Part shown: piece by piece, positions 7,822-43,936 of the stretch | How the letters are laid out: each line of letters begins with the position of its first letter | Numbering within the stretch: position 1 is the stretch's first letter | Assembly (NCBI GenBank): GCA_015492245.1 | Contig: WGFM01000004.1 | Span: 1-48,168, forward strand | Source: Deltaproteobacteria bacterium | Lineage (GTDB): Bacteria; Desulfobacterota; GWC2-55-46; DRQE01 | Reading direction: 5' to 3' | DNA length: 48,168 nt | Made by a program: the position numbers and the translations under genes | Notes under the pieces: model-generated | Seen by the model: the letters and a program-made list of their open reading frames with translations, nothing else | Told to the model about the DNA's origin: nothing | Database searches by the model: none

Positions 7822-7851
7822 CTTTTCTACCTCCTCACATCTACATGGGTT

Positions 7852-22659: not shown

Positions 22660-24142
22660 ACATCTGCTCCCTGTATATCTTCCTGTACGCATCTATCATG
22701 GTATCGAGCCTGTAGTATCGCTCCACCCTTCTCATGGCAGCTTCCTGGCAGCTGTTCCAGTCCCCTCTGTTTGAAAGCAACCTTTTGTATGCACGGGCAA
22801 GCTCATGAGGATTAGCTATTGGAGTAAGCTCCCCTGCCATGCCTATCTTGATGTCCTCGTCGTCGAGTCCACCCTGTATAAGCTGCCTGCAGGAGCCCAC
22901 ATCGGTTGCCACAACAGGCACCCCCGCGCCAAATGCCTCAAGCACAACAAGGGGCATGCCCTCGCTTATAGATGTAACTGTAACAAGCCCTACCCTGGGA
23001 AGTATATCCTCTATGTCCTGAAGCCCCATGAATACGACCCTGTCCTCAAGGTTGAGTATTTCTACAAGTTTTGTGCACTCCTCGTAGTAGCCTGGGTCCT
23101 CGTCGGTGGGTCCAACTATCCAGCCCCGTGCATCTGGTAGTTCATCGGTTAGAATCTTCACGGCATTTATAAATGTCTTTGTATCCTTTATGGGAACCAC
23201 CCTTCCTATAAGCGCCACAACCCTGGGGACATCACTGTCAGGGGACCTTCTAAGCCGTGAGAACCTCTCAAGCTCTATGCCGTTCGGTATTATACATGTC
23301 CTGTCAGGGCTGGCACCATACTTTATCTGAACCTCCCTTGCACCATCGAAGAGAGATATTATTGGCTCGGCACTGTTGTAGATGAACCTGCCTATACTCT
23401 CAAAGAAGCCTATCCACACCTGCCTCAAGTGCTCCACATCGCCGTGTTCTTTCTGAAAGAACAGCCTTCTGTCCACAAGCCAGTCGGCATTCATTATGTC
23501 TATCTTTCGCTCCCTCGTGTATATGCCATGTTCTGTGAGAACGAAGGGTATGTCTCTATCGTATCTCAAAAGGGAGGCAAGGAAGCCTGCGTATCCAGTG
23601 GAGGGGCTGTGGATCAACCTGAAAGATGGGAGATTTTTTGCTATATCGGCAAGTTTCCATATGGGCAGATGCATGTTTCTTATGGTCCAGAAGTAGTCAA
23701 CAAAGGGAGACTCCATATCGTAGTTTATGTACTGCTCCTTTATAAACTTCCACACATCCTTACTGTAGAGGAAGGCTTCTTCTTTGACCTCCTCTATGTA
23801 GAACCTGAGTGTTTTGAGCTTCTCTGGCACATCCTCTGTGTGTCTTCCCTTGAACCACAGGTGCAGGTGTCTCACATACTCAAGGCTACTCTCCTCTATA
23901 CGCTGTGCCTGTGGGGTAGGCCCTGTAACAGGCTCGAACATATAGTGCTCTTCGAGGTGTACGAGGTTGTCGGAAAGTATATACTTCTTCTCCCCATAAT
24001 CCCGAGCCCTTCCACCTATGAAGACCACTCCGAAGGTGAACTCCTTCATGCTCGTTATGAGACGATGTATCCATGTGGACACACCCCCGCTCACATATGG
24101 ATAGGTTCCCTCAGCCAGTATCATTATGTCTATTCTCTTCAT
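22640..24142 (-). CDS. pelF: PelF: cytoplasmic glycosyltransferase (GT4)
   Basis: A 500-residue GT-B fold glycosyltransferase. MILAEGTYPYVSGGVSTW (residues 7-24) is the PelF signature; LTEHGIYTRERKIDI (about 210-224) and VALIGRVVPIKDTKTFI (about 317-333) are the acceptor- and donor-domain segments. EGMPLVVLEAFGAGVPVVA near residue 393 is the family-4 EX7E motif, with Glu at the start and within LEAFG. PelF is the polymerase that uses UDP-GalNAc (or UDP-GlcNAc) and works in complex with PelD, PelE and PelG at the membrane. Its start overlaps the pelE stop by four bases. No membrane helix or signal peptide is seen. Confidence 0.95.
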   Translation of the reverse strand: MKRIDIMILAEGTYPYVSGGVSTWIHRLITSMKEFTFGVVFIGGRARDYGEKKYILSDNLVHLEEHYMFEPVTGPTPQAQRIEESSLEYVRHLHLWFKGRHTEDVPEKLKTLRFYIEEVKEEAFLYSKDVWKFIKEQYINYDMESPFVDYFWTIRNMHLPIWKLADIAKNLPSFRLIHSPSTGYAGFLASLLRYDRDIPFVLTEHGIYTRERKIDIMNADWLVDRRLFFQKEHGDVEHLRQVWIGFFESIGRFIYNSAEPIISLFDGAREVQIKYGASPDRTCIIPNGIELERFSRLRRSPDSDVPRVVALIGRVVPIKDTKTFINAVKILTDELPDARGWIVGPTDEDPGYYEECTKLVEILNLEDRVVFMGLQDIEDILPRVGLVTVTSISEGMPLVVLEAFGAGVPVVATDVGSCRQLIQGGLDDEDIKIGMAGELTPIANPHELARAYKRLLSNRGDWNSCQEAAMRRVERYYRLDTMIDAYRKIYREQMYGRHRV

Positions 24143-25083
24143 GAGCCTCTCCAGAACATGACTATGCTGCGTAGATGGTTGTTGAGCACCGTCTCCACAT
24201 CCATCTGCTCCAGAAGCTCCCTGGTCCTGTTGTAGTCGCCACGGTTGAAGTATATCTCTGCAAGATAGGGTATGGTCCTACTCTCCTCCACGCCCAGCCT
24301 ACGAGCCCTCTCAAGGGCACGCATCGCCCCATCATGGTCACCCATCTTAAGACGGGCCTTTCCGAGCACCACATATGCCGCAGGGTCTTCGGGGTTCTCC
24401 CTTATGGACTCCCTTGCGTATATTATCGTTTCTTCAAGTACAGACGGCTTTATTGCGTCATCCACTATATTGAAATAAAAGAGATCGTAATAGGTCTGTG
24501 CCAGTTCTTTGAGCATCTCTGCCCTCTTTGTCCTGTCAGCCTCTGCCGGCAGAGCCTTCTTTATACTGTGTATACTCTCTACAAACTCCTTCTCTGCACT
24601 GTTCAGTATGCCAAACACATAGAGCCTGATTTCATCCACAGGGTTCGAAAGGTTCTGCTTTATGATTTCAAAGGCTGCAGGTGTCTTGAAATCAGCGAAT
24701 CCAAGGAAGACCTTCTGCTTTGCCTCAACATTTGCCTTCTCGGGTTGAAGGAGTTCTGCAAATGCACCCTCTCCGAACCTTCTTCCTTCAAAGAAGAGGT
24801 CCTCTTCCATGATGTCACCCGTGGCTATGGTATCGTATGAGATTACCCTCTGCTGCATGCGGCTCTTGAGGAGAAGATAAAGGGCTATGAGCACAATGTA
24901 TCCTGCTACGAATGTGGTGAAGCCCACAACGAAGAATACCAGAAAGCCTGCAAGCCTGTACTTTCTGTATCTTTCAGGCAGAAGAGGCTGCACCAGCGCG
25001 GAAAGCAGAGCAACAGCCAGGGCATGCATGGTAAGGACTATTAGTATAGCCAACTGATAGTTGTCTGGTATATACGACATCAT
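24139..25083 (-). CDS. pelE: PelE: membrane-anchored TPR protein of the Pel synthase complex
   Basis: A 314-residue protein with two N-terminal membrane helices (about 10-32 and 44-71, FLVFFVVGFTTFVAGYIVLI) and a soluble part ending in TPR-like repeats (PAAYVVLGKARLKMGDHDGAM, then RTIPYLAEIYFNRGDYNRTR). This layout equals Pseudomonas PelE, which bridges PelD and PelG. Assignment rests on layout and position between pelD and pelF. The start has two adjacent ATG codons and no clear ribosome site, 16 bases after pelD's stop, so translation may depend on re-initiation. Confidence 0.88.
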   Translation of the reverse strand: MMSYIPDNYQLAILIVLTMHALAVALLSALVQPLLPERYRKYRLAGFLVFFVVGFTTFVAGYIVLIALYLLLKSRMQQRVISYDTIATGDIMEEDLFFEGRRFGEGAFAELLQPEKANVEAKQKVFLGFADFKTPAAFEIIKQNLSNPVDEIRLYVFGILNSAEKEFVESIHSIKKALPAEADRTKRAEMLKELAQTYYDLFYFNIVDDAIKPSVLEETIIYARESIRENPEDPAAYVVLGKARLKMGDHDGAMRALERARRLGVEESRTIPYLAEIYFNRGDYNRTRELLEQMDVETVLNNHLRSIVMFWRGS

Positions 25084-25099
25084 AGTGGTTCACGGTCTG

Positions 25100-26374
25100 T
25101 TATTGTGCATCAAGTGTAAGCACATCTCTCAACAGCACATCGGGTTCTTCCGTGAGCCTGAAGAACCTGCAGTTCACATTCTCTGTGAAGTTGTCAATGC
25201 CCATGTAGTTTACAAGGGTTCTGCTCAGGCGTTTGTAGAAGCCCTTTGCATCCTCCATGCCAGCAAAGGGAAGCAGAATGAGGAATATCTCCCTATCAGC
25301 CCTGTCCACCTCGCAGATTACATCGAGGGTACGCAGGTTATCCCTTACAATCTCCTCCACATCCAGGGTGCTCTTCTCTATGTAGAATGCCACAAGTGTG
25401 CTCTCCACACCAAGGTTGTGCTTGAGGTCATAGTGTGTCTTGAGCTCTTTCAGGAAGTCCACCGATATATCACTTAATCCCTCCGCCAGTGGGCTCATCT
25501 CTTCGAGGACCCTCTCTTCTTTGTATAGATAGTGAAGCAGCACATAGAACAGGAAAAGGTTGTCCCTGTTAAGGGATACAAAGGGAATCTCCTTTATCAC
25601 CATGAGCAGTTCAGGTCTGTTGTCCACAACTGGAATGACGGCAAGGTACTGTGAGGCTTCCCGCTCGAGATCGAGCATGGATATGTAGCACACCCTCTCT
25701 TCCTCGATAGCCTTTCTTACAAGGGGGTCTTTCATATCAAGCTGGACATCTTCTCCTGTTGATACCACAGGGATGAAGGTGCCATCCTCCCTTCTGTAGA
25801 TGGCTCCCCTGGAGAGTTTGAAGTTTGTGGAAAGCAGACTTATCAGTACACGATATGCCTCTTTCTTCTCTGCTCTCGCAACAGCCTCTCTTATATCGTA
25901 AAGGATACTTCTTATGCTCACAGGTTTTATGAGGTATGCCCTCTCGAGCTGGTTGTGAGACTCTTTGAGCAGGATGAAGTTTCTCGCCATATCATCGAGT
26001 TTGTCCTCTAAATAACTGGTCTTGAGGGTAGCCCTCTCCATGTGTCTTCGCCAATAGAAGTTGAACTCTCCCATTATGAGTGTGAGAAGGGCATGCCACA
26101 GAAAGTAGTCTGTGGGAAAGGTCTCGTAGAAGTAGAGTATAAGAAGGGTGGAGACAAACAGCGCTATGAGCCCTGCCCCAAGACCATAGTAGAGTGTGAG
26201 CACCGTCAGAAGAACCATCAGGTAGGTTGTTCGCTCGTTGACAAGGAAGGGATCTTCCGGGTTGAGCAGATAGCCAGCAAAGGCAAGCCCTGCGGTAAGA
26301 ACCAGTATTTCACCCAGCAAGACCTTTATGCTGACATCCTGAAAGAAAGAGCTGGCTGGCTTCAACCTTATCAA
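25100..26374 (-). CDS. pelD: PelD: c-di-GMP receptor of the Pel synthase complex
   Basis: A 424-residue protein with about four N-terminal membrane helices (residues 15-107), a GAF domain (about 155-285) and a degenerate GGDEF domain (about 290-415). The active-site GGDEF is absent: the matching turn reads EVDRADREIF, so no cyclase activity is expected. The inhibitory-site motif RxxD is kept as RTLD at 348-351, the site through which Pseudomonas PelD binds c-di-GMP and switches on polymer synthesis. A TTG at 26374 is the only start that keeps the first helix; GAGAGGT lies about 9 bases upstream. The 245 bases between pelC and pelD hold a short ATGGTA/TACCAT hairpin but no gene, so pelD may have its own promoter. 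Confidence 0.93.
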   Translation of the reverse strand: MIRLKPASSFFQDVSIKVLLGEILVLTAGLAFAGYLLNPEDPFLVNERTTYLMVLLTVLTLYYGLGAGLIALFVSTLLILYFYETFPTDYFLWHALLTLIMGEFNFYWRRHMERATLKTSYLEDKLDDMARNFILLKESHNQLERAYLIKPVSIRSILYDIREAVARAEKKEAYRVLISLLSTNFKLSRGAIYRREDGTFIPVVSTGEDVQLDMKDPLVRKAIEEERVCYISMLDLEREASQYLAVIPVVDNRPELLMVIKEIPFVSLNRDNLFLFYVLLHYLYKEERVLEEMSPLAEGLSDISVDFLKELKTHYDLKHNLGVESTLVAFYIEKSTLDVEEIVRDNLRTLDVICEVDRADREIFLILLPFAGMEDAKGFYKRLSRTLVNYMGIDNFTENVNCRFFRLTEEPDVLLRDVLTLDAQ

Positions 26375-26619
26375 TTCCTGTTACCTCTCTGCTATGAGGA
26401 TGGACAGCACAATCAATCTGTAACCTGATACTGAACGAGCTTGTTCTGCGCAGGCAGTCATCACCACCATTGTTCTGCTATCCAATTGGTTATCAGACTC
26501 AGGATGCCTTTGAGATGGTAATTGTAGAGCTACCATGAGAAGCTGTTATTATGAAATGTTCTCAAGTCTGTCCAAGAGCAATCTTACAGTATGGTGCGCA
26601 TCCTTATGGCTTAAGGTTG

Positions 26620-27114
26620 TTACTTACGGACAAGTTTATTGAGAAGTTTTTGCGTAACCGTTCCTATGGACTCATGGGACCAGCCTGTTGCAGAACCTGC
26701 TGCACTCCATACCACCCTGCCACCTGCCGTGCTGTAGAGGTCTATGGTGATACTTACCGCAGGTTCCCCGTCTATGCCTGTTTTGTACCTGTACTCGTTC
26801 ACACTACCTGTGAAGATATAGCCTGCACCCTTTCCGCGAGCCTCTTTAAAGAGTTGCCTTATCTCCTCAGGTGTGTAGTCCCCTTCCTTGAGCCTCCAGA
26901 ACCTCTCCTCGACGGCATACCCCTTCGTTCTCAGTACACTCTCCATCAATGAGGCAACCCGTAAGCCAGCCATGGGGGTCTCGGTATGGTTCTCAAGAGG
27001 CAGAACCACGACAGAAGCCGTATCTGGCAACTCCGTCAGCTTACCTGTATTTACAACACTGCTGCAGGACAGGAGTACAAGACCTATCAAACCGGTTATT
27101 AACGCTCTCACCAT
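26620..27114 (-). CDS. pelC: PelC: outer-membrane lipoprotein
   Basis: About 164 residues, starting at MVRALITGLIGLVLLSC, a lipoprotein signal with lipobox LLSC (Cys17). An in-frame ATG at 27150 would add 12 residues before the signal and is less likely. The mature part (VVVLPLENHTET, then SLMESVLRTKGY, and GAGYIFTGSVNEYRYKTGIDG) follows the TolB-N/LpoB-like fold of PelC, which forms a dodecameric ring under the PelB pore and guides the cationic polymer through its acidic funnel. Length is near the 172 residues of the Pseudomonas protein. Here it is the first gene of the pel run, unlike pelABCDEFG, where it is third. Confidence 0.82.
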   Translation of the reverse strand: MVRALITGLIGLVLLSCSSVVNTGKLTELPDTASVVVLPLENHTETPMAGLRVASLMESVLRTKGYAVEERFWRLKEGDYTPEEIRQLFKEARGKGAGYIFTGSVNEYRYKTGIDGEPAVSITIDLYSTAGGRVVWSAAGSATGWSHESIGTVTQKLLNKLVRK

Positions 27115-27171
27115 AAACCAAGTTCCTCTGTCTAAAAGACTCTCTGCCACGGCATGCCATAAAGCTTCAAT

Positions 27172-27552: not shown

Positions 27553-28653
27553 ATGGGAAAAGGAGCACACAGACTGGTTCTTTTACTCTTCCTGCTACTT
27601 GCTGTCACGGCAGGCAGGTCCTATGCAACTGACACAGAGAAGAGCTTCTACATCAAGCCATACGATGGCCCGGCAAAGTCAATAAAAGTGGCAAAGATGG
27701 ACAAAGATGGTAAATGGGATACAGACTACAGGGGCAAGAGGCCCCTTAAGGAGTTCACCATCGTGGTGAAGGATGTGGAAATAGAGATAGCCCCTGGTGT
27801 GAAGGTTACAACCTGGGCTTTCGGGCTCGAGGGAGAAGAGGCTACTGTGCCAGGCCCTGAGATAAGGGTAAACGAAGGAGACTTCGTAAGGGTTTACTTC
27901 AAGAACACCCATAACATACCACATACCATACACTTTCACGGTCTTAACGCACCCTTCCACTCTGACGGAGTGCCCGGTGTCAGCCAGAAAGAGGTCAACC
28001 CGGGGGAGGTCTTTGTTTACGAGTTTGTTGCAAGAAGGACCGGAACCCATGTCTACCACTGCCATTATCAGACCATAATGCACCTCGAGATGGGCATGTA
28101 TGGAGCCTTCATAGTGGAGCCAAAGGAGAAGAGGTACGAAGCGGACAGAGATGTGGTATGGTTCCTCGATGAATGGTCTGTCATAAAGGATGGTAAGTGG
28201 TATGACCTCCCTCTTTCAGGGGTCAACGGCAAGTACAACTACTTTACCATAAACTCGGTTGCATGGCCCAAACTCGATGTAGCACTTACAGGTGTCAAGG
28301 TGGGCGAGAGGATAAGGATAAGGCTCATAAACATGGGCTACAAGCTACACTCCATGCACATTCACGGGCACAAGATTCTGGTTACCCACTACGATGGCTA
28401 CCCTGTGCAGGACCCCTACTTCATAGACACGCTCCCCATAGCCCCAGGACAGAGGATAGACTTCATATTCGAGGCGGATAACCCCGGCATATTCCCTGCC
28501 CATTGTCATGTGGTTCCCCATGTGTCGAACAATGGTGTATATCCTGGTGGCATGTTGACAGGCATAGTCTATGAGGGCTTCAGGCCAGGAGAACTACCAG
28601 AGAAGGTAGATGAATACAGAAAGAGACACTTCCCCATCCCCCCTTCCAGATAA
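27553..28653 (+). CDS. exported two-domain multicopper oxidase
   Basis: A 366-residue protein with a signal peptide (MGKGAHRLVLLLFLLLAVTAG, cleaved near SYAT) and two cupredoxin domains. Copper motifs in order: HTIHFHGL (about 124-131), HVYHCHYQTIMHLEMGM (about 163-179, with Cys-His and Met typical of a type 1 site), HSMHIHGH (about 266-273) and HCHVVPHVSNNG (about 316-327). The set fits two-domain laccase-like or nitrite-reductase-like oxidases that trimerise and share the trinuclear or type 2 site between subunits; which of these applies needs structure modelling. The likely role is periplasmic metal (Cu or Fe) oxidation or detoxification. It is divergent from pelC and is followed by a long hairpin. 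Confidence 0.88.
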   Translation: MGKGAHRLVLLLFLLLAVTAGRSYATDTEKSFYIKPYDGPAKSIKVAKMDKDGKWDTDYRGKRPLKEFTIVVKDVEIEIAPGVKVTTWAFGLEGEEATVPGPEIRVNEGDFVRVYFKNTHNIPHTIHFHGLNAPFHSDGVPGVSQKEVNPGEVFVYEFVARRTGTHVYHCHYQTIMHLEMGMYGAFIVEPKEKRYEADRDVVWFLDEWSVIKDGKWYDLPLSGVNGKYNYFTINSVAWPKLDVALTGVKVGERIRIRLINMGYKLHSMHIHGHKILVTHYDGYPVQDPYFIDTLPIAPGQRIDFIFEADNPGIFPAHCHVVPHVSNNGVYPGGMLTGIVYEGFRPGELPEKVDEYRKRHFPIPPSR

Positions 28654-29032: not shown

Positions 29033-29773
29033 TCAACGCAGTCTAAAGACTATCTCTACCTCCATCATCACCCTGTCTTTGCCGATTCTGACTGGTGGAA
29101 AGGGGGCAGCCCTTTCTACAATCCTTATGGCGGCACGGTTCAACACCCTGTGGTTGCACGGTGAGCTTACGCGCAGGCCAGCTATGGTGCCATCCTTCAG
29201 GATGTAGAAGTATAGCCCCACCCTTCCCTCATAGCCCCTCTTTCTGGCAACCATGGGGTAGAATATATTCTGCTCTATAATCGTCCTTACCATGCTCTTG
29301 TACTCTGCCATATAGCCATCATCACCATCTTCTTGCATGCCGTTAGGGCTGATGGCTCTATCGGGGGTCTTGCTGCCGGCATGCGCGGGATGGGAGTTCT
29401 GAGTACCTTCCATACCGTAAGGCTGCACCTGCGGGGGCTCACGGGGCTTTCTCTTTTCAACAGAGGCCGGGGCCACCCTGTCGTCCTGTGCCCTGTAGTG
29501 TGCCACATTGCCTTTATTTCTCGCCTTTCTATTGGGTCCGGGGGGTCCGACATCAGCACCATCGCCACCGTTCGTAATGCTCCTGCCTTCTTTATAGGCG
29601 GCCTCTGGCACGATACTCAACACAACCACATCGGGTGCTCCATCTGGCCTGCTGTGTGTCTTTGGACCGAGGACCACAATGGCTGCAACAACAGATACAT
29701 GGAGCAACAAGGAGCCAACCCATGCAAAAGCTACTGTGGACAGACGGCTACCTTTCGCCTGCGGTCCTATCAT
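29033..29773 (-). CDS. tonB-like: TonB family energy-transducing protein
   Basis: A 246-residue protein with one N-terminal membrane helix (about residues 14-35, AFAWVGSLLLHVSVVAAIVV, with the His often seen in TonB helices), a long flexible Gly/Pro/Lys/Asn-rich periplasmic linker (about 55-150) and a C-terminal TonB domain (about 155-245: YKSMVRTIIEQNIFYPMVA, GYEGRVGLYFYILKDGTIAG, LNRAAIRIVERAAPFPPV). It transmits proton-motive force to the outer-membrane receptor encoded in the same operon. It is last in the operon, overlapping the BtuF-CbiZ gene by 26 bases; the ribosome site (AAGGC) is weak. The linker is Gly/Asn-rich rather than the usual Pro/Lys repeat. Confidence 0.88.
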   Translation of the reverse strand: MIGPQAKGSRLSTVAFAWVGSLLLHVSVVAAIVVLGPKTHSRPDGAPDVVVLSIVPEAAYKEGRSITNGGDGADVGPPGPNRKARNKGNVAHYRAQDDRVAPASVEKRKPREPPQVQPYGMEGTQNSHPAHAGSKTPDRAISPNGMQEDGDDGYMAEYKSMVRTIIEQNIFYPMVARKRGYEGRVGLYFYILKDGTIAGLRVSSPCNHRVLNRAAIRIVERAAPFPPVRIGKDRVMMEVEIVFRLR

Positions 29774-31775
29774 GCCTTAAGCCCATGAGTATGCCATTGA
29801 ACAGACAGTTGAAAGCCCTGCGTAATGCTACAGGGAGTTTCAGCCTCCTGTTGACAAGCGGCTCGAGCTCCTCTACCGTGCCTTTACTCAGCCTCTCGGC
29901 TACAGCCACACACCAGAGCATATATCCATCGAGCCCACCTATTGAGCCATGCTCTATACCATCGCTTATCAAGAATGCACCCTCTACAAAAGATGCATAC
30001 AGGGGCAGTGTAAGTATCTGCTCGAGTCTTTCAACAAGCCTGGCCCTTTCTGCCCCTGAAAGCCCTGCCCCATCCAGTAGTGAGTAAACCTCTATGTTCC
30101 GCTCGGCAAGTCTTTCAAAGACCGAACGCCTCATCCCTATACCGTTCTGTTTAAAGACTGCCTCCTTGACCGCCCTGAAGACCGCTCTACCCATGACCTC
30201 ACCGACCTTTGTATGTCCACCTGTGGCATCCACATCTGCCCCCGTTCCTTCAACCACTATTATGTTATCTGTGCCGGTGCCTGTCGCCTGGTTTACAGCA
30301 GGGCTTTGAGAGCTTCTTATATCAAGGTCCTGAAGGGCTGCTGTCTTTGCCTCTGTTGCTGTTATGAGAGCTCGTGCCATAGCCCGTGGCGACAGCTTCC
30401 TGTTAGCCATTATTATTATATTTATGGTGCCGGGCCTGTAGAAGCTGCCCTCATCCTCAGATGCACGAAGGGCATTTGACCTAACACCGGCAGTTACAAT
30501 GGCATATACTGTAAGCCCCCTGTAGTCTTCTCTTGCCACACTTAAGTTGTCCATATCCGCCCCTGTGAAGAGAAGGCTCGCCTCTTCTTCCAAGAGTCCC
30601 GTTGCACGACAGACCTGCTCCCTCAACCTCTTAAGCCCAACCCTGTGTGCCACCGCCCAGTTCTGCGGGGGCAGATAGTGGTTGCCCACATAGCGCACAC
30701 CTTCACGCCATCCTTCAAGGGTTGACAGGACCTTCAAGGGCTGTCTGAACCGAACGATAAGGCTTTTGTGTATAAAGTCGTTTATACGCACATGGTCTAT
30801 ACGGCTCATTTCCACATAGGCCAACTCCAGAGGCAGGGTCTTTGAGCCAACAGGGGCATCCTTATAAACCCTACTCTTTGCAAACTCCTCAACATATATG
30901 TTCGATGCAAGCCATGAGACGAAATGTCCTGCACTTACAGAGGCTCTACAGGTTAGCTCACAGGGAAAGAATAGTATCCTGCCCTCTTTTACCGCCTCCA
31001 CATCCTTCCAGCCCGGTTCATTCTCTATAGTCTCAATCGCCCTGCTCTTCTTGTTACAGGCGTATATCACCTGTGGGTTGAACTCCATCCACTCCTTCTT
31101 TGTAATGCTTACCACATCGCCCTGCTTTCCTGTCGTAAGCGGTATGGCACCTGCTGCCCTTATGTAGTCGAGCTGGAAGGAGTCATCCCCAGGGACCATC
31201 ACCCTGTCTCCACCCATAATTCTTGCAACCCGCTTCCTCCTCTCCCTGGGTACATGGCTCAACTTTTTTGCCACAAGCTCTATCTCCTCTCTTATGGCCT
31301 TCACCAGCTTTTCTGCCTCACTTTCTTTCTGGAAGATTCTTCCCACGATCCTTATGTTTCCGTATATGTCCTCTATCGAGTGGGCATCGAGCTCAACGAT
31401 GGCTGCCTTGCCTTTTAGCCTCTCTATCGCATCTCTGTGAACACTGGCAACAAACATCAAATCTGGCTCGAGGGCTTCTATCTTCTCCAGAGACGGATAA
31501 AGAAAGCCTCCCAGGAGTTCCTTACCTTCGGTGTGGCTGTCGTGATACGTGAGACCTTCGAGCTCATCCTTCATACCGAGTGCAACCAGTATGTCCGTAA
31601 CCGAGGGCACCAGAGACACCACCCTTGACGGAGGCCTGTCTATTGCAACCCTTCTGCCTGCTCCATCGGTGAAACTTACATGGTAAGAAGAGGCATACAA
31701 ATGCCCACTATAAAGAAGTGCTGTAAGAAAGCTCAATGTGAGGATAAAGGCCACCATTTCAGTTTTTCTCATCAC
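29748..31775 (-). CDS. exported BtuF-like binding protein fused to a CbiZ amidohydrolase domain
   Basis: A 675-residue fusion. After a signal peptide (residues about 8-28), residues 30-310 form a class III periplasmic binding protein of BtuF type: RVVSLVPSVTDILVALG, LEALEPDLMFVASVH-like segments (IEALEPDLMFV) and GVVSITKKEW-type hinge regions. Residues about 335-555 match CbiZ adenosylcobinamide amidohydrolase: LIVRFRQPLKVLS, AGVRSNALRASED (near 425), GTINIIIMANRKLSP, ITATEAKTAALQDL and TGTGTDNIIVVEG. About 110 further residues (to 675) are helical and unassigned. CbiZ cleaves the nucleotide-loop amide of pseudo-corrinoids to cobyric acid and is normally cytoplasmic, so an exported version is unusual. 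The start ATG overlaps the end of the CobN-like gene by four bases. No BtuC/BtuD permease genes are in the window. Confidence 0.85.
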   Translation of the reverse strand: MMRKTEMVAFILTLSFLTALLYSGHLYASSYHVSFTDGAGRRVAIDRPPSRVVSLVPSVTDILVALGMKDELEGLTYHDSHTEGKELLGGFLYPSLEKIEALEPDLMFVASVHRDAIERLKGKAAIVELDAHSIEDIYGNIRIVGRIFQKESEAEKLVKAIREEIELVAKKLSHVPRERRKRVARIMGGDRVMVPGDDSFQLDYIRAAGAIPLTTGKQGDVVSITKKEWMEFNPQVIYACNKKSRAIETIENEPGWKDVEAVKEGRILFFPCELTCRASVSAGHFVSWLASNIYVEEFAKSRVYKDAPVGSKTLPLELAYVEMSRIDHVRINDFIHKSLIVRFRQPLKVLSTLEGWREGVRYVGNHYLPPQNWAVAHRVGLKRLREQVCRATGLLEEEASLLFTGADMDNLSVAREDYRGLTVYAIVTAGVRSNALRASEDEGSFYRPGTINIIIMANRKLSPRAMARALITATEAKTAALQDLDIRSSQSPAVNQATGTGTDNIIVVEGTGADVDATGGHTKVGEVMGRAVFRAVKEAVFKQNGIGMRRSVFERLAERNIEVYSLLDGAGLSGAERARLVERLEQILTLPLYASFVEGAFLISDGIEHGSIGGLDGYMLWCVAVAERLSKGTVEELEPLVNRRLKLPVALRRAFNCLFNGILMGLRHDRTAGER

Positions 31776-34700
31776 ATTCTCCTTCCACTTTTTCTGTAGC
31801 CAAGAAATATTAGAAGAAGAAAGAGCATGAAGCCCATTATGAACAGATAGGGCACCGGTGCAGAGCCTGTTTCTGCTTTTCTTTTCACCTCTTCCATCTC
31901 ATAGCCCTCAACGGTCTGTGGCTTCTTCTCTTTGGACACAGGTTCTCTGTTTTCTTCCCTTAGGGATGTGCTGCCAGCTGTGGTTGTGTTCTTGAATATC
32001 CTCTCGAAGGATGCCGCTCCGTCCTTCAGTGCCGGCACAGGTAGCATGACACTTCTTGTGAACTCTTTAAGTTTCGGATTGTTGCATGTATGATCACAGC
32101 AGGTAAGCCCCACATCTTCCACAGTCTCCGTATACTCGCTTACCAGTCTTTTCACCGTCTCACCATCTGCCTTCCAGTAGCCTTTCCTTACTGCCTCGAG
32201 CATCCTTGCCACAAGGCTCTGGTATGCATAGAGGTTACTGGCATCTTTCATCCTCTGCTTTATGTTCAGTCTGTAACGGTCGAGCACATAGGTCTCATAG
32301 AATGCCTGCCACATGGTATCTCCCACAGCCTCTGGCACAGTTACCTGCCATCCCCAGAGATACTCCATCAGATTTGCAAAAAACCGTGCACCTGCATAGC
32401 CCTCACGAAGCATGGATTCTATCCAGCGCGGGTTTAGGTAGCGGGTCTGTGCCTCCTTTGTCATAAACCGTTTAAGTGCTTCCTGTCTCATCCTGTCAGG
32501 GTCTATGAGGTTCGTTATATAGACATTCGGGCTCTTGCCATCCATGGTTCTTACAGTAAGGGCAAGCCCACCGAGGTATTGAAACATATCGTCGTTGTCC
32601 ATCGTTGCGTAGAGGTTGCCAGAGACACTGTGGACCACCATGGATGTGCCAGAAAGAGTCTTCCAGAAGATATTCAGCCCACCTGCTGTCGCATCCTCAC
32701 CCCAGAAGCCCTGTCCATAGAGGTATCCCAGCCGCCTTAGAAAAAGCTCTGCAAGGCTTCTTTCGTCCTTCCATGAGTCCGATTTTGCCACCGCCTCACT
32801 CAGCCCTGTTCCATAGGTGCCGGAGCGCTCGGTAAAGATTCTCACCGTGGCAAGCCTCTCTGCAAGCCTCTCTTCCACGCCCTGTTTGATGAGTATCTCC
32901 TTGAGTTTCAGTGTATGGCTTCTTATCGCGTTGTCTCTTTCGTTCTGTTTCTTTGCCACGGTTACTGCCCTGTCGAGAAGTGCCATGAGGTTCGGAAATG
33001 TGTCCCTGTAAAGCCCTGATGGCACCATCACCACATCAACCCTTGCCCTTCCGAGCCTCTCTCTCGGTATGGCTGCAACATCAACCACCCTTCCGCGTTC
33101 ATCCCATACAGGCCTTACACCAAGGAGTGCCATAACCTGTGCCTCCATGATCCCCCTGTGTCTTATGGTCTCAACAGCCCACAGGTTTATGGTTATCTTT
33201 TGTGGCATGGTGTCCTCATCTTTCAGGTGCTTCTCCATGAGCTCTTCTGCCATCTTAACCCCTTTCCTGTAGGTGGCCTCTGTGGGTATCTTTGATGGGT
33301 CGAAGGCAAAGAAGTTTCTGCCTGTGGGAAGAGACTCTGGAGTTCTTACAGGGTCTCCCCCAGGACCTGCTGGTATGTATCTACCATTGAGGGCGGTGAA
33401 GAGTTTTTCAAGCTCTTCCTTTGCGGAATGCAGGATGAGTCTGCGATAAAGGGCCTTCTTGTCTTCCACATCCTCTGACGAGCCAACAGCCTCAGCAATT
33501 GCAACAGCCGTCTTGTCAACCATGTCCTCATGGGGTGTCTTTCCAAAGGTATGGAGCCCAAAGGGTGTTGGGGCATTCTCCATCTCATCCATGTATGCCT
33601 CGATTCTGTCGAGCACATCGCTATCGGCCACATCTTTTACTGAAAGTGCCCTTAATATACCAAGCCTTTCTGCAAGCTCTTTAAGCTCCCTCAGGGTTTC
33701 ATCTAAAGAGGTGGCGCCAAGTGCAAGGGCGTTCCTGTAGTCGTTCAGGAGTTCTTTCAGTCTTCTGACATCAGGGTTCAACCCTGCCTTATCGAAAGGT
33801 GGCGTCATGTGGTCTATCACAACTGCCATGCCACGCCTTTTTGCCTGAAGCCCCTCGCCAACATCGTCCACTATGTAGGGGTATACAACCGGGGTGTGCT
33901 GGGTCAACACATCTGGTGGGTCGCTTTCTGAAAGCCCCATCTCTTTGCCCGGAAGCCACTCATGGGTGCCATGGGTTCCAAGGTGTATTATGGCGTCTGC
34001 CCTGAAGACCTTCATGAGATAGAGATAAAAGGCTATGTACTGATGATGGGGTGGTAGTTCCGCAGAGTGGTAGAGTTTGTCTACATCCTGAAGCCAGCCC
34101 CTTGCAGGCTGGGGTGCGAGTATCATGTTGCCATACCTGACAATGGGTAGCACGATGTAGTCCTTTCCATCTTTCTTCCACATCATTATGGTGCCATCCC
34201 CGGGGCTACCCCACTCTTTTATGACCTCTTTTCTGAACCCCTCTGGAAGCTCACCGAACCAGCGCGAGTACTCATCAACAGGAATCAATACAGCCTTACC
34301 AGATGCCACAAGGCGAGAGAGCTCTCCTGCTGCCCAGTTGCCAAGGTTTCGTCCATAGCGGAAGAGATTCTCCGAAAGCCCCGTTTTCGTGAGCCCTCTG
34401 TTGCCTGTGTTATATCCCTGCCTTCTGAATCCATCCATCATGGTGTATATGCTCTCGATCACATTGAGATAGGATGCCCCTATGTTATGTTTGCCAGATG
34501 GATAGTTGTAGTAAACGATGGCGATGCGTTTGTCCCTGTTGGGTTTGCTCCTAAGATTGAGCCATGCCCTCACCCTCTTTGCGAGCATCTCCACCCTTTC
34601 CCTTATGGGTTCTGTCCTGTAATAGGTTGTACCGGTTGATGGGTCCTTGTACCGTTCTCTGGAGCCCACCACCACTGGCTGCACAGTTCCAGCAAGTTCA

Positions 34701-35629
34701 GGGGTTGCCACCTGCCATGTCCTCTCGAATATGGAAAGCCCTTTCCTGGATTGGAGCCATTCGCTGCGGCTCTTTCTATAGAGGCTTATGGCATCTATTA
34801 CAGGAGCCCCTATCTTCTCAAGTATGGGCACCATAGAGGTCTTTGCCCCTATCTTAAGAGATAGGCCCACTATGATACTCACCCTGAACTCCGGGTTTTC
34901 AAGAAAGTATCTCTTCAGCATCTCCTCTTCTGGCCAGCCAAAGACAGGAAAGACATTCAACCCCTCTTTCTCAAGGGCATCCACTATGGCGTCAACAAGG
35001 TTGGTGTCTTCTGTAACCAGTGAATTTCTGTAGAATGTAAGCCCCACCCATGGGACATCCTTCCTGGGTTTGTAGTGTCTCAGAAACTCATCAACACTTT
35101 CCACCCACCTGTGCTCCCCTCGTATGTATATGCCCATAGAAGGCATCTTCCGTGGGGCATCTGGCTCCACTTCGATTCCAGGCTCTTTCCTTACAAGAAA
35201 AAGGAGCATGTTCTTAAGGTTCTCCGTGCCACCATGGTCGTAGTAGGCCGTAAGAACAGGGTCTCTCAGTATACCCATCTTTCGGTATTCTTCGTCATAG
35301 GGCTCGCTTACCCCATAGACCCTGCCGCCATTTTTAACAACCCTTTCTACATAGTCCCTTGCTGCCATAACGATTCTTCTATCCATAAGGTAGATGACAA
35401 AGAGCTCGCCCTTCTCTGGCTTACTGTCTTTGATACCCGAGCGATCAAGAACCTTGAAGGAGACCCTTTTTTCAACCTCAGGGTGCTCCTTCTCTATGGC
35501 CTTTATTGCCTCTACAAGAGGCAATGTGTGGCTATCCGCGGGAAGAATGGTTATGACCGATGCAACGGATTCCTTTGCAAGAAGAAACAATAGAAGTGCC
35601 ACTATGTGAAAGAGCCTACTCTGGAACAT
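31772..35629 (-). CDS. exported, membrane-anchored CobN/HmuS-like chelatase subunit
   Basis: A 1285-residue homologue of the large cobaltochelatase/Mg-chelatase subunit (CobN/BchH). Unlike biosynthetic CobN it has a signal peptide (MFQSRLFHIVALLLFLLAK) and a C-terminal membrane helix (about 1259-1278, PYLFIMGFMLFLLLIFLGY) followed by a basic tail, placing the catalytic body in the periplasm. Family motifs include HLGTHGTHEWLPGK near residue 550, AGPGGDP near 760 and ERSGTYGTGLSEA near 940, plus a CC-x3-C motif (LTCCDHTCNNP) near the end. HmuS of Bacteroidota has this architecture and works on haem; here the cobalamin riboswitch and CbiZ fusion suggest a corrinoid. No CobS/CobT partner genes occur nearby. 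AAGGGTG lies 6 bases before the ATG; overlaps the DUF2149 gene by 14 bases. Confidence 0.88.
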   Translation of the reverse strand: MFQSRLFHIVALLLFLLAKESVASVITILPADSHTLPLVEAIKAIEKEHPEVEKRVSFKVLDRSGIKDSKPEKGELFVIYLMDRRIVMAARDYVERVVKNGGRVYGVSEPYDEEYRKMGILRDPVLTAYYDHGGTENLKNMLLFLVRKEPGIEVEPDAPRKMPSMGIYIRGEHRWVESVDEFLRHYKPRKDVPWVGLTFYRNSLVTEDTNLVDAIVDALEKEGLNVFPVFGWPEEEMLKRYFLENPEFRVSIIVGLSLKIGAKTSMVPILEKIGAPVIDAISLYRKSRSEWLQSRKGLSIFERTWQVATPELAGTVQPVVVGSRERYKDPSTGTTYYRTEPIRERVEMLAKRVRAWLNLRSKPNRDKRIAIVYYNYPSGKHNIGASYLNVIESIYTMMDGFRRQGYNTGNRGLTKTGLSENLFRYGRNLGNWAAGELSRLVASGKAVLIPVDEYSRWFGELPEGFRKEVIKEWGSPGDGTIMMWKKDGKDYIVLPIVRYGNMILAPQPARGWLQDVDKLYHSAELPPHHQYIAFYLYLMKVFRADAIIHLGTHGTHEWLPGKEMGLSESDPPDVLTQHTPVVYPYIVDDVGEGLQAKRRGMAVVIDHMTPPFDKAGLNPDVRRLKELLNDYRNALALGATSLDETLRELKELAERLGILRALSVKDVADSDVLDRIEAYMDEMENAPTPFGLHTFGKTPHEDMVDKTAVAIAEAVGSSEDVEDKKALYRRLILHSAKEELEKLFTALNGRYIPAGPGGDPVRTPESLPTGRNFFAFDPSKIPTEATYRKGVKMAEELMEKHLKDEDTMPQKITINLWAVETIRHRGIMEAQVMALLGVRPVWDERGRVVDVAAIPRERLGRARVDVVMVPSGLYRDTFPNLMALLDRAVTVAKKQNERDNAIRSHTLKLKEILIKQGVEERLAERLATVRIFTERSGTYGTGLSEAVAKSDSWKDERSLAELFLRRLGYLYGQGFWGEDATAGGLNIFWKTLSGTSMVVHSVSGNLYATMDNDDMFQYLGGLALTVRTMDGKSPNVYITNLIDPDRMRQEALKRFMTKEAQTRYLNPRWIESMLREGYAGARFFANLMEYLWGWQVTVPEAVGDTMWQAFYETYVLDRYRLNIKQRMKDASNLYAYQSLVARMLEAVRKGYWKADGETVKRLVSEYTETVEDVGLTCCDHTCNNPKLKEFTRSVMLPVPALKDGAASFERIFKNTTTAGSTSLREENREPVSKEKKPQTVEGYEMEEVKRKAETGSAPVPYLFIMGFMLFLLLIFLGYRKSGRRM

Positions 35630-35954
35630 ATATCACCCTTCCGTCTTCGAGCCTGTAGGCGGTGCCAAGCTTTACTCCCCTGCCAGACAGTCTCCTGTCT
35701 GTAACCCTTTTTGCCTCTATCTTACGGCCCTTTTTGGTTATGATTTCGATCTTTCCGTCTCCATCCTTTTTTAGTATCGTGAGTTCAGACTCGGGGTTCA
35801 GAAGCTCCAGCATGTTGTATGCCATAAACAGGGCTACCATCATGCTCACTATGAAGACAATCCCTGCATCGAAGAGGTTTGCCACACCCTGTATGGGATC
35901 CTCTATGGGTTCTTTGGAATCGAAAAAGAGCCTTCTTCTTTTAAGAAACCTCAT
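35616..35954 (-). CDS. DUF2149 protein, ExbD-like
   Basis: I place the start at 35954, where ATG overlaps the stop of the ExbB-like gene (ATGA); a frame starting at 36023 would only duplicate that gene's 3' end. The 112-residue product is MRFLKRRRLFF..., with a single membrane helix preceded by VANLFDAG. Asp29 at the start of this helix corresponds in place to the proton-carrying Asp of ExbD/TolR/MotB. The C-terminal part is periplasmic and basic, with KKGRKIEAKRV and a strand-rich end (GTAYRLEDGRVIYV). DUF2149 is a domain found with CobN-like and ExbB-like genes in archaea and bacteria. I infer that it replaces ExbD as stator partner for the operon's TonB. Confidence 0.82.
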   Translation of the reverse strand: MRFLKRRRLFFDSKEPIEDPIQGVANLFDAGIVFIVSMMVALFMAYNMLELLNPESELTILKKDGDGKIEIITKKGRKIEAKRVTDRRLSGRGVKLGTAYRLEDGRVIYVPE

Positions 35955-36505
35955 CCTTTCTGTCTCCTCCTCAAAAGAATCTCTGCATGGGTCTCCATTC
36001 TGAGTATGTCTCTTTTCACCCACTTCTCTTTTACAAGGCTCAGCACATAGGCAGCTACCCCGCAGGCAAGCCCCACCACAGTGGTCGTAAAGGCTGTAAC
36101 CATATTGCCTGCCATCTGGGGTATGTCTCCCCTGGCAAGAGAGCTCAGGGCTATGCCCATCGGTATGAGGGTTCCCATGAGTCCAAGTGCAGGCCCCACC
36201 CTTATGACAAACCTTATCCTGTTGAGCCCGTCGGTAAGCTCTGCCTCTCTGCGCTGTAGCTCCCTTTCTATAAGTATGTCCAGTGTATCTGTGGATTCAC
36301 TGTTTTCAACCTCTTCTTCAAGGCTATCGCAGAATCTTTCCACATCGTACTCATAACCTCTCTTTCTTTCGATATACTCTCGCAGAAGTGCGCCCGAACA
36401 GAAAAGAACCCAGAAGACAAGCCCCACAAGGCCTGCCACGACAGGGTATAGCATAAGTTCGGAGAGCACATACAGAAATGTCAGAAGCCCTGCGAATATG
36501 TTCAT
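35951..36505 (-). CDS. exbB-like: MotA/TolQ/ExbB-type proton channel protein
   Basis: A 184-residue protein with three membrane helices: about 8-40 (LSELMLYPVVAGLVGLVFWV), 98-125 (VIRVGPALGLMGTLIPMG) and 132-160 (MVTAFTTTVVGLACGVAAYV). The GPALGLMGTLIPMGIAL and FTTTVVGLACG motifs are the ExbB/TolQ signature, including the Thr residues lining the proton path. Cytoplasmic loop from about 45 to 95 is acidic. It would power TonB together with DUF2149. Overlaps the DUF2162 gene and the DUF2149 gene by four bases each, so translation is tightly coupled. Confidence 0.9.
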   Translation of the reverse strand: MNIFAGLLTFLYVLSELMLYPVVAGLVGLVFWVLFCSGALLREYIERKRGYEYDVERFCDSLEEEVENSESTDTLDILIERELQRREAELTDGLNRIRFVIRVGPALGLMGTLIPMGIALSSLARGDIPQMAGNMVTAFTTTVVGLACGVAAYVLSLVKEKWVKRDILRMETHAEILLRRRQKG

Positions 36506-37209
36506 ACTCTCCTCCCGCTGGTTATGAAACCAGTGACTGCTGCAAGGAGAAGAATCCCCACAACACCAGGTGCATCTGCGGTAAGCATTACAGGAGATTT
36601 TGCCCCAAGAAAACCAGAGTACACAGGCCTTGCCTTCTCCACCACTGCTGGAACGAAAAGAGAAAGGATAAAGTATAGCCCTACGAGAAAGAGTGTGAAA
36701 GAGAGGTTGACTATGCCCCTCTCCTTCGATGCCCTCGCAACAAAAAGAAAAACTGTGGTCAGCGTAAGAAAGACCACGAGAAGCAAGCCTCCCATAAATA
36801 CGGGGGAGCTACCTGTAAATGCCACCGCAGACCACACAGAGTATGCAATGGCAGCCGTACATACAGGGCACGGAACGACGAGCAGAATAAGTGAAACCTT
36901 CTTCTGCCGCTCGGTGCAGCACACGCTGTGGTTTTTGAGTATCCACAGTGCCCAGCCTACAAATGCTACGGCAACTATTGCGTGAAGATAGATGCCTGCC
37001 CCAAGCACGCCTGAAAGAACCCCCACCACATCTTCAGCAACAAGGCTCAGGATGATGAAGAGTGCCATGTAGCCTCCATAGACAAGCCCCACCTCTTTAA
37101 GTGTGGCTCTCGCAAACCCAAGCCCACAGCCTGTCTTTACTGCGAACACCCCAAGGCTTATACTCATGCCAAGAAGCCACAGAGCCGTATCTATGGATGG
37201 ATTCTGCAC
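36502..37209 (-). CDS. DUF2162 predicted transporter
   Basis: A 235-residue polytopic membrane protein with about six or seven helices, e.g. DTALWLLGMSISLGVFAV, GLVYGGYMALFIILSLV and GVVGILLLAAVTGFITSG. It has a CCTERQK motif near residue 97 and PCPVCTAAI near 112, giving four Cys that could bind a metal or form redox pairs. DUF2162 proteins are annotated as putative transporters and commonly neighbour CobN-like and DUF2149 genes. GTG start with GGAGG six bases upstream, 10 bases after the receptor gene. It could move the freed metal or corrinoid across the inner membrane, given the absence of BtuCD; this is inference. Confidence 0.82.
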   Translation of the reverse strand: MQNPSIDTALWLLGMSISLGVFAVKTGCGLGFARATLKEVGLVYGGYMALFIILSLVAEDVVGVLSGVLGAGIYLHAIVAVAFVGWALWILKNHSVCCTERQKKVSLILLVVPCPVCTAAIAYSVWSAVAFTGSSPVFMGGLLLVVFLTLTTVFLFVARASKERGIVNLSFTLFLVGLYFILSLFVPAVVEKARPVYSGFLGAKSPVMLTADAPGVVGILLLAAVTGFITSGRRV

Positions 37210-37219
37210 GAACGCCTCC

Positions 37220-39166
37220 TCATATTATGAGCCTCACAATCCCTGTGTATGTCCTTTCTGGCATGGGATAGCCCGCCACATACTCGTAGCTTCTGTTGAG
37301 AAGGTTCTCAACTGAAAACCCTAACTCAACCTCCTTGTGCACCCTGTATGAACCCTTCAGGTTCACAAGAAGGAAGCCTCTCTTCTCTATGGTCTTCCCA
37401 TAGGTTGGTGAAGAGAAGTTCCAGTCTGTAACCTTCTCCTTTCCGTTATAGCGTGCAACGAGCCTTGCATCCCAGCTTTCACCCATCATCCTTACGCCAA
37501 AACTGCCAACCCACTTTGGCGTGTATAGAAGGGTCTTTCCGTACTCGTCTATTTCGGTCCTGTCTTTTGCAGAGTAGCGGGTATGGTAGGTTATGCTTAC
37601 GAATGGCTCTACCGAGGTGAACCAGCCCAGAAGAGCACCTATGTCTGTAGAGAGGTTTGTCTCCACACCCTGAACAGTGGCACCATCCACATTCTTCCAT
37701 GTCCTTGCAGAAAGGCCTGCATCGTAGTAGCCCAGTATCTTGTTGTCAAACTCTGTATGAAAGAAGGTAAGCTCCACACTGTTCATCCCATCTGAGAACT
37801 CCACACCTGCATCATAGGTTACACTCTCCTCGGGCTCAATCTCAGGGTTTCCCACATAACGGGTTCCCCATGAAGAGACATAGTCTGCTGCAAGCTCATC
37901 AGGGGCAGGAGATCTGAAGGCCGTGCCAATGTTGAGCTTAACCCTTGTATGCTCTGTAAGCCTGTATACTGCACCACCCCGTAAGGCTGTGTAGTCCATG
38001 TCCTCATCCCTTGGGGTTACAGAGACACCAGGGGTGCTCAGCACCTCGTTCTTGAAGTAGTCGTATCGCAGTCCACCGTTGAGGGTGAGCCTTTTGTCCA
38101 GAAGCTCTCCCCTGAGTTCTGTAAAGACTCCATATGTGTTGTACCGCGAGTTCGGGCTATAGGGAGCTCCTGCGGTTCTCTTTGAAGAGACCCTTATCCT
38201 GTTCCAGTCCGCACCAGCTACAAGGCGCACACCTTCGAACTCAAAGCTTTTCTGTGCTGTAAAGCCGGTGGTCTGTGTATTTTTTGTGGTTACATTGGTG
38301 TTACTGTACCACTCGTCCTTGTCGTCTATACTGTAGTAGCTTATCTTTGTGCTCTCTGTGGTGTAGGCAATATCTATGCCGTCTCTTTTCTTATCCGAAT
38401 AGTCGTCCGGAGCTGGTGAGTACCTTGGCCCTGGGGAGCCTATGTCCCAGCCACGCCAGTGCTCGAGACCGAAGGAAAGCCTTCCGCCTTCTTTGAGCCC
38501 GTAGCCGAGCCTGAAGGAAAAGGTCTCGTCGTTGTAGGATGTGTTTGGAATCTTACCGTACTCTCTGGCGTCGTAGTCGCCCCTTGATGCCCTGCTCACA
38601 GAAAACAGAAGGTCTACCATTCCTTCTTTAAGGCTGAACTCTGCCCACTGTTTCGAGTAGTCCCACGAGCCACCTTCTGTCCCAAGCTCTGCACCCGTGC
38701 GCCTCGCCCTTTTGGTTATTATGTTTACAACCCCTCCCATTGCCTGTGAACCGTAGAGCACGGAGGCAGGTCCCTTTACTATCTCTATCCTCTCTATATC
38801 CTCAACAGGTATCTTTGCAAGGTTCACCGTGCCTGCATTGTGCCCGTCTACGAGAACGAGTACCCTGCTCTTGTAGATACTGAAAAGGTCTGTTGCAAGC
38901 CCCCTCAGGCCCATTCTTGCACTGAGTGTGCCGGGATACTTGTGCACATGCCCGATGCCTGCCTCGCTCACCAGATCTGCTGCATCCTGTGCGGTGGAGT
39001 TCTTTATGTCCTCACTGGTTATAATCTGAACCGGAGAGGATACATCTTTTCTTGGCTCCTCAATCCTTGTGGCTGTAACGACCACTTCTCCAAGACTATC
39101 CGCCTGCACGGTAAGTGCTGTGTTTGTCAAGAGAAGGATTACGAGACATACAAGAAACCTCTTCAT
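37220..39166 (-). CDS. btuB-like: TonB-dependent outer-membrane receptor, BtuB/HmuR-like
   Basis: A 648-residue receptor. A signal peptide (MKRFLVCLVILLLTNTAL, cleaved near VQADS) is followed by a TonB box (LGEVVVTATR, about 25-34), a plug domain with SARMGLRGLATD, VLVLVDGHNAG, DIERIEIVKGPASVLYGSQAMGG split across 120-150 and IITKRARR, and a 22-strand barrel ending in YTGIVRLII. Length and plug motifs fit BtuB and haem receptors equally. The cobalamin riboswitch upstream favours a corrinoid ligand. The barrel has no FRAP/NPNL-type haem motif that I can see. GGAGG lies about 10 bases before the ATG. First large gene of the riboswitch operon. Confidence 0.92.
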   Translation of the reverse strand: MKRFLVCLVILLLTNTALTVQADSLGEVVVTATRIEEPRKDVSSPVQIITSEDIKNSTAQDAADLVSEAGIGHVHKYPGTLSARMGLRGLATDLFSIYKSRVLVLVDGHNAGTVNLAKIPVEDIERIEIVKGPASVLYGSQAMGGVVNIITKRARRTGAELGTEGGSWDYSKQWAEFSLKEGMVDLLFSVSRASRGDYDAREYGKIPNTSYNDETFSFRLGYGLKEGGRLSFGLEHWRGWDIGSPGPRYSPAPDDYSDKKRDGIDIAYTTESTKISYYSIDDKDEWYSNTNVTTKNTQTTGFTAQKSFEFEGVRLVAGADWNRIRVSSKRTAGAPYSPNSRYNTYGVFTELRGELLDKRLTLNGGLRYDYFKNEVLSTPGVSVTPRDEDMDYTALRGGAVYRLTEHTRVKLNIGTAFRSPAPDELAADYVSSWGTRYVGNPEIEPEESVTYDAGVEFSDGMNSVELTFFHTEFDNKILGYYDAGLSARTWKNVDGATVQGVETNLSTDIGALLGWFTSVEPFVSITYHTRYSAKDRTEIDEYGKTLLYTPKWVGSFGVRMMGESWDARLVARYNGKEKVTDWNFSSPTYGKTIEKRGFLLVNLKGSYRVHKEVELGFSVENLLNRSYEYVAGYPMPERTYTGIVRLII

Positions 39167-39434: not shown

Positions 39435-39592
39435 CGGATGGGTCTTCCGGCTTGGGGCAGGTTAGCCTACTCGCCCGCCTTCCCACCATGGTGTTATCCA
39501 TGGCAGTGGCTCTGGTGGGCTTTCGTTCCCATCACGGCTGCGGGGCAGCGGGGGATTCACACCCCTCTTCCACGCATCCGCCAGTTTGTGTG
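39435..39592 (-). promoter_or_regulatory. cobalamin (B12) riboswitch
   Basis: On the minus strand the aptamer contains, in order, GTGTGAATCCCCCGCTGCC, CCGCAGCCGTGATGGGAACG, the B12 box GAGCCACTGCC, CCATGG paired with CCATGG, GGTGGGAAGGCGGGCGAG and AAGCCGGAAGACC. These are the conserved core segments of AdoCbl-type riboswitches. It starts within about 20 bases of the predicted transcription start. The expression platform probably involves CCTCGAGG and the GAGGGAGG ribosome site that follows (39410-39430), so translational control is likely; no terminator stem with T-run is evident. It controls the receptor-CobN-like operon and ties it to corrinoids. Confidence 0.92.
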
Positions 39593-43643: not shown

Positions 43644-43936
43644 TCCACCGCCTGAATCTCTAACAATTGCCGCTCCATAAGGTCCTTTACAAACAAGAGA
43701 GTAAGCCATTTCACCCGTTCCATCTCTTTTTCATCACAATCAAGGGCATGCACGAATATCCGGATAGCATCCTCAATACTCAGCTTTCCATCCAACAAGC
43801 TTAAAAAGCGAACCCCCTCGTCTGAAACGGAATGGAGATGATCGGTAGCGGGATTATAGAGCAGATAGCCTTCATCCTGTTTGCGGAGAATCACATCATC
43901 GCGTATACGCGGTTTACAGCTTAACAAATCTATCAT
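43640..43936 (-). CDS. PqqD-like (RRE) protein
   Basis: A 98-residue PqqD-family protein: PRIRDDVILRKQDEGYLLYNPATDHLHSVS shows the beta-hairpin (split across residues 9-38), then DEGVRFLSLLDGKLSIEDAI and a helical end. PqqD-like domains bind the leader of a precursor peptide and present it to a radical-SAM/SPASM enzyme, so a ribosomally made product is suggested. It starts and ends with four-base overlaps (with the SPASM gene upstream and the methyltransferase gene downstream), which points to strict co-production. Confidence 0.85.
   Translation of the reverse strand: MIDLLSCKPRIRDDVILRKQDEGYLLYNPATDHLHSVSDEGVRFLSLLDGKLSIEDAIRIFVHALDCDEKEMERVKWLTLLFVKDLMERQLLEIQAVE

Follow-up and report, generated by a model that had tools for sequence, protein, structure and literature searches.

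Cobamide remodelling has so far been treated as an intracellular step, and the characterised bacterial CbiZ, one of the enzymes involved in it, has been studied with adenosylated substrates, adenosylation being a cytoplasmic reaction. The occurrence of CbiZ genes adjoining transporter genes is already known (PMC8620254, PMC4285132), and a coupling of CbiZ to transport has been suggested before (discussed in PMC7733943). As regards the transport machinery itself, periplasmic CobN-like BtuS proteins have been described in Bacteroides fragilis (PMC6460266), while a cobalamin riboswitch had already been observed with some Hmu-like operons, which were accordingly linked to cobalamin (PMC10100974).

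The window considered here, that is, the whole stretch of DNA that was analysed (48,168 nucleotides of contig WGFM01000004.1, from a Deltaproteobacteria bacterium of the phylum Desulfobacterota), contains a gene in which a BtuF-type binding domain and a CbiZ domain are joined behind a signal sequence. In the open-access papers that were searched, neither an exported CbiZ nor a BtuF-CbiZ fusion was found to be described. A first-pass annotation had read the product as an exported protein, remodelling corrinoids in the periplasm before uptake. This reading is partly supported as a whole: the fusion is well supported as a sequence feature, and its function is inferred from conserved residues and gene context.

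Architecture of the fusion protein

The gene starts with a GTG codon, the second codon being ATG. The presence of a BtuF-type binding protein and CbiZ in a single ORF, as first proposed, was confirmed by a Pfam domain search of the full protein, which placed Peripla_BP_2 (84.7 bits, cut-off 27.5) at residues 52-269 and CbiZ (189.9 bits, cut-off 27), complete over positions 1-191 of 191, at residues 342-536. The limits of each part are given in Table 1, together with the other genes of the operon. When fusions are compared region by region, mean majority identity is highest in CbiZ (71%), followed by the BtuF part (61%) and the C-terminus (47%).

Table 1. Position of the fusion, its parts and the accompanying operon features in the window
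Feature	Position	Strand	Evidence
Cobalamin riboswitch aptamer (RF00174), some 275 bases before the first gene	39442..39571	-	Rfam 70.5 bits against a gathering threshold of 31.5
TonB-dependent outer-membrane receptor (plug and barrel)	37220..39166	-	Best curated models heme/hemoglobin and B12 receptors, none above cut-off
DUF2162 polytopic membrane protein, "predicted transporter"	36502..37209	-	PF09930, 135 bits; putative inner-membrane role
MotA/TolQ/ExbB-type proton channel subunit (HmuU-like)	35951..36505	-	PF01618
DUF2149 protein (HmuV/ExbD-like); true start may fall inside the ORF	35616..36023	-	PF09919, 107 bits
Exported CobN-like protein (BtuS/HmuS type)	31772..35629	-	PF02514, 1068 bits
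Exported BtuF-type/CbiZ fusion, 675 aa	29748..31775	-	ORF and Pfam
Fusion residues 1-30, signal peptide	31686..31775	-	Hydrophobic stretch, also present in 77/77 assessable homologues
Fusion residues 31-300, BtuF-type binding domain	30876..31685	-	PF01497; invariant C240, C272, C276
Fusion residues 301-335, linker	30771..30875	-	Alignments
Fusion residues 336-540, CbiZ amidohydrolase domain	30156..30770	-	Pfam and conserved residues
Fusion residues 541-675, C-terminal domain, probable decayed CobZ (alpha-ribazole phosphatase)	29751..30155	-	CbiS/CobZ comparisons
TonB protein, last gene of the operon	29033..29773	-	PF03544

The signal peptide assigned at first reading is also supported. The N-terminus (MMRKTEMVAFILTLSFLTALLYSGHLYASS followed by YHV) resembles a Sec signal peptide and has no lipobox: a few basic residues come before an extended hydrophobic stretch, and small residues (YASS) occupy the site where cleavage is likely. 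Hydropathy reveals no second transmembrane stretch after it in the window protein. In a survey of 78 fusion ORFs (Kyte-Doolittle hydropathy over 15 residues), a hydrophobic stretch lay immediately N-terminal to the BtuF domain in all of the 77 that could be assessed, with a median value of 2.5; at the same test cytosolic-type CbiZs gave mostly about 0.6-1.4, with one at 1.75. The predicted location of the fusion is the periplasm. Moreover, a separate clade of stand-alone CbiZs (L112, L114, L115 and L116; support 100/97 together with L113, whose start has no signal) carries a signal sequence of its own and no BtuF domain, so that exported CbiZ is seen twice in a TonB/CobN-like context: these four proteins adjoin TonB-dependent receptors and, in several cases, also CobN, DUF2162, ExbB or DUF2149 genes, L112 being near DUF2162, ExbB, DUF2149 and CobN-like genes. 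In genome G316, an exported fusion and a cytosolic-type CbiZ without a signal are both present.

The BtuF-type domain is recognised by the general Peripla_BP_2 model, whereas the NCBIfam BtuF equivalog (NF002894) gives 27.5 bits against a cut-off of 234, so that corrinoid binding by this domain rests on its context. The positions of the BtuC-docking glutamates of E. coli BtuF are variable among fusions, the second being shifted by one residue in the alignment. The three cysteines of the domain (PCxLTCR plus C240) are invariant in 53 of 53 fusions, and the motif PCxLxCR is also found in a stand-alone relative; they may possibly form a disulfide or a metal site, or provide a ligand to the corrinoid cobalt. 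Locus L063 has the BtuF half alone (51% identical), without CbiZ, adjoining FecCD- and ABC-type genes. In genome G050 (locus L117), a signal-less BtuF-like gene with C-x3-C is found about 1.2 kb from a gene for CbiS; the two ORFs, BtuF-like and CbiZ-CobZ (888-1703 and 2863-4041 of L117), may be relatives, in unfused form, of the two parts joined in the fusion.

As regards the CbiZ domain, a lack of catalytic residues, which the first-pass annotation had named as an observation that would speak against it, was looked for through the conserved columns of an alignment of 49 CbiZs, including fusions, exported stand-alone proteins, cytosolic-type proteins of the same phylum and annotated CbiZs of five other genera (Dehalococcoides, Leptospira, Phaeobacter, Shinella and Cytobacillus). 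Every column conserved at 90% or more is matched in the window fusion, the residues being T404, T428, G430, N434, R437, GTxN 449-452, E475 and K477, and further TGTGTD 498-503, G519, H521 and G525. Since the catalytic residues of CbiZ are, to our knowledge, not established, this match is a test of the family signature and not a proof of activity; the domain is predicted to be an amidohydrolase forming cobyric acid. In the periplasm it would have to accept upper ligands other than those of the adenosylated substrates used with characterised CbiZ, because adenosylation is cytoplasmic. In the tree of CbiZ sequences, the fusions form one clade (support 97/96), so that the fusion probably arose once, and their nearest non-fusion neighbours are the CbiS of G050 and the CbiZ of Dehalococcoides, at a weakly supported node (85/43).

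Finally, the extra C-terminal part, for which no role had been assigned, is real and conserved (about 135 residues after CbiZ), but a probable identity as a decayed CobZ can now be given. Pfam yielded chance matches only for this region. A profile of 53 fusion C-termini matches the CobZ half of G050 CbiS with 23 bits, the highest value among 500 shuffles being 4.3; with hhalign the match stands at 95% across about 121 columns, and the CbiS model NF038002 aligns over CbiZ plus the first 75 residues of the C-terminal region, its score on the fusion being 92.2 bits against a cut-off of 250. The acidic residues of CobZ (DE..G, DKKKPG and FLDD in the G050 protein) are not retained in the fusions. 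The region is thus most likely, judging from comparison with one CobZ sequence, a decayed CobZ without phosphatase function, equivalent to the second half of CbiS; a single sequence was used because the phylum has hardly any CobZ, with one clear case, and a search for CobZ in plasmids found none.

Operon, host genome and distribution

The fusion is the sixth of seven genes, in the order receptor, DUF2162, ExbB-like, DUF2149, CobN-like, fusion and TonB. It shares 4 bases with the CobN-like gene upstream of it and 26 with the TonB gene that follows, and because of these overlaps the seven genes, from receptor (39166) to TonB (29033), are read as one operon. The corrinoid context attributed to the fusion is supported by its place in a cobalamin-riboswitch operon with a CobN-like protein, the riboswitch being one of three in the host genome. 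Heme, suggested as the substrate of the operon by the best model of the receptor (a heme receptor), was rejected in view of the cobalamin riboswitch and the CbiZ domain.

The CobN-like protein has an N-terminal signal-like helix and a C-terminal membrane helix, as read from its sequence, and its closest solved relatives are the HmuS heme dechelatase first and then CobN. HmuS features a Met-rich insertion, Met79 and His254 (PMC12583661). In one pairwise alignment, with features taken from that work, HmuS stretch 699-890, which follows the first aligned block, is without counterpart in the CobN-like protein and His254 without a His partner, while a Met aligns with Met79; as both the insertion region and an equivalent of His254 are missing, the protein is not filed as HmuS.

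Outside the operon, sequence reading found a Pel-type polysaccharide operon look-alike (PelG-, PelF-, PelE-, PelD- and PelC-like) at 21289-27150 of the window on the minus strand, and, just past the TonB end of the operon, an exported multicopper-oxidase-like protein with cupredoxin-type His motifs (27553-28653, plus strand). Upstream of the riboswitch, at 40543-44991, two SPASM-type radical SAM proteins, a HemN-like radical SAM protein and a methyltransferase were read in the same way.

The host genome encodes CbiB, and behind its two other riboswitches are found CobQ/CbiP, CbiA, CobT, CobS and corrin-ring genes (names by sequence reading). Since both corrinoid synthesis and CbiB are encoded, the host seems capable of cobamide synthesis and of using cobyric acid. 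Two near-identical contigs of 4.3 kb in this genome (C10 and C11 of G000; loci L104 and L105) each carry cbiB, an aminotransferase and a CcdA-like gene, and could be strain variants or a recent duplication.

As regards the inner-membrane step, no FecCD/BtuC permease was found in the host genome (G000, estimated to be 100% complete), so that the words "before uptake" in the earlier claim need care; nor was FecCD found in the other three fusion genomes of the host order (G001, G004 and G009). FecCD is present in four fusion-less genomes of the host family and, outside the host order, in 47 of 48 fusion genomes. Within the window operon, DUF2162 alone is a candidate for an inner-membrane permease. 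Among ten genomes compared, it was detected in the fusion genomes G000 and G009 only, both without FecCD, and it is thus a natural candidate for the permease in the host lineage; in G001 an ORF of weak similarity occupies the corresponding position, and the contig of G004 ends too early to show it.

The fusion was found in 4 of 48 genomes of the host order; in the phylum-wide sample of 395 genomes, about 51 carry it (rows covering both halves counted). A scan of named genomes gave 51 fusion loci, mostly from Desulfobacterota, with a few labelled Nitrospirae; the named carriers in Desulfobacterota include Delta proteobacterium NaphS2, Desulfosarcina widdelii, Desulfofustis glycolicus, Desulfogranum and Desulfoferrobacter, and a close relative of the window locus (L016) belongs to a MAG named HyVt-575. 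Given this recurrence of the same architecture, in both the phylum sample and the named contigs, the two domains have not been joined merely by accident.

Of 30 other fusion loci scanned, 26 have a cobalamin riboswitch upstream on the same strand, and three of the four that gave none have under 2.6 kb of upstream sequence; in L023, L026 and L039 it immediately precedes the fusion gene. Two types of neighbourhood were distinguished, with or without the Hmu-like set (receptor, DUF2162, ExbB, DUF2149 and CobN-like), and those without it often contain FecCD/ABC genes and sometimes a separate BtuF. In L030, the fusion is found just upstream of cobQ, cobU, cobT, cobS, a gene for a CobC-type aminotransferase and cbiB (names by sequence reading), neighbours which concern the fate of cobyric acid, since their enzymes turn it into cobamide. 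In the same corrinoid locus, the genes for the TonB receptor and the fusion are separated by one (7356-8645) whose product is an exported protein of 429 aa.

Proposed function and alternative readings

The reading considered probable is that the fusion is a periplasmic enzyme for the capture and trimming of corrinoids, whose product, cobyric acid, would be imported and rebuilt. Under low adenosylcobalamin, the riboswitch would permit expression of the operon, and the TonB receptor, driven by the ExbB-like, DUF2149 and TonB proteins, would bring corrinoids into the periplasm. There the BtuF-type domain would capture them, and the tethered CbiZ would hydrolyse the amide bond by which the aminopropanol linker is attached, so that cobyric acid is formed and the linker or nucleotide part is set free. 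Cobyric acid would then cross the inner membrane, through BtuCD where present and in the host probably through DUF2162, and CbiB/CobS and their partners would build from it the native cobamide with its native lower ligand. The wider proposal, in which remodelling begins outside the cytoplasm and the host lineage has a BtuCD-free route, with DUF2162 passing cobyric acid and the CobN-like protein acting as a tetrapyrrole handler, is made only tentatively.

Alternatively, the fusion could serve ordinary transport, the BtuF domain working in uptake and CbiZ being an inactive or accessory binding module, in keeping with the fact that the fusion adjoins FecCD in at least 14 genomes. This is judged unlikely, considering that all CbiZ-wide conserved residues are kept and that CbiZ, and not the BtuF part, is the most conserved region; furthermore, several loci have a separate BtuF gene adjoining the fusion, and the window genome is without any FecCD.

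Also unlikely is a dismantling of corrinoids in the periplasm to scavenge cobalt or the ring, where the fusion would trim the side chain and the CobN-like protein remove the metal in the manner of HmuS, only metal or parts being imported, although the CobN-like partner is exported and nearest to HmuS among solved structures (PMC12583661) and the host, lacking FecCD, has no known corrinoid permease. Many fusion loci, however, have BtuCD-type genes and no nearby CobN-like gene, the CobN-like protein of the window lacks the large insertion region of HmuS and leaves His254 unmatched, there is no metal transporter in the operon, and the cobalt transporter CbiM is absent from G000. We also know of no enzymatic removal of cobalt from a corrin, which counts against the same alternative.

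Very unlikely, lastly, is an N-terminus that is no functional export signal, with a cytoplasmic fusion acting on corrinoids already imported: the described form of CbiZ is indeed cytoplasmic, and a signal-less BtuF-like protein occurs near CbiS in G050, but the signal sequence in every assessable fusion, the BtuF-type fold, the periplasmic partners in the operon and the independent exported stand-alone CbiZs all argue against it.

If the capture-and-trim reading is true, foreign B12-like molecules could be trimmed down to a core fit for reuse before entering the cell. A periplasmic CbiZ tethered to a binding protein would couple capture to hydrolysis and would reduce the dependence of salvage on the lower ligand, and neighbouring cells could receive some of the products. 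Moreover, the fusion suggests an origin for its C-terminal domain, and DUF2162 and BtuS-type CobN proteins become testable parts of corrinoid import, including in genomes seemingly without a B12 permease.

Comparison with known systems

With the CbiZ family (PF01955), represented by the adenosylcobinamide/pseudocobalamin amidohydrolases of Methanosarcina and Rhodobacter sphaeroides, the fusion shares a complete domain and all the family-conserved residues; it differs in being exported and fused behind a binding protein, whereas the characterised enzymes are treated as cytoplasmic. CbiS, the bifunctional CbiZ-CobZ enzyme (NF038002), has the same succession of CbiZ and a C-terminal region which, in the fusion, aligns with the CobZ half; the fusion has lost the acidic CobZ motifs and gained the N-terminal BtuF domain and the signal peptide. 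The binding domain resembles the vitamin B12 binding protein BtuF in its Peripla_BP_2 family, its export and its corrinoid operon, but it falls below the equivalog cut-off, has an invariant C-x3-C and has no BtuC partner in the genome.

The operon as a whole is similar to the Hmu and BtuS1-BtuS2 operons of Bacteroides (PMC12583661, PMC10100974, PMC6460266) in its TonB receptor, its exported and membrane-anchored CobN-like protein and its ExbB-like and DUF2149 proteins, differing from them in the lack of HmuY and in the addition of the exported CbiZ fusion and TonB. A physical coupling of a remodelling enzyme to uptake is also seen in Cytobacillus (L130), where CbiZ is fused to an ABC ATPase, and where CbiZ is found beside btuFCD; in these cases the coupling is on the cytoplasmic face, while that of the window fusion would be in the periplasm. 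Finally, CbiR of Akkermansia (PMC7733943) likewise opens cobamide remodelling and has been proposed to be coupled to uptake, but it is unlike the CbiZ of the fusion both in its unrelated fold and in the bond that it cuts.
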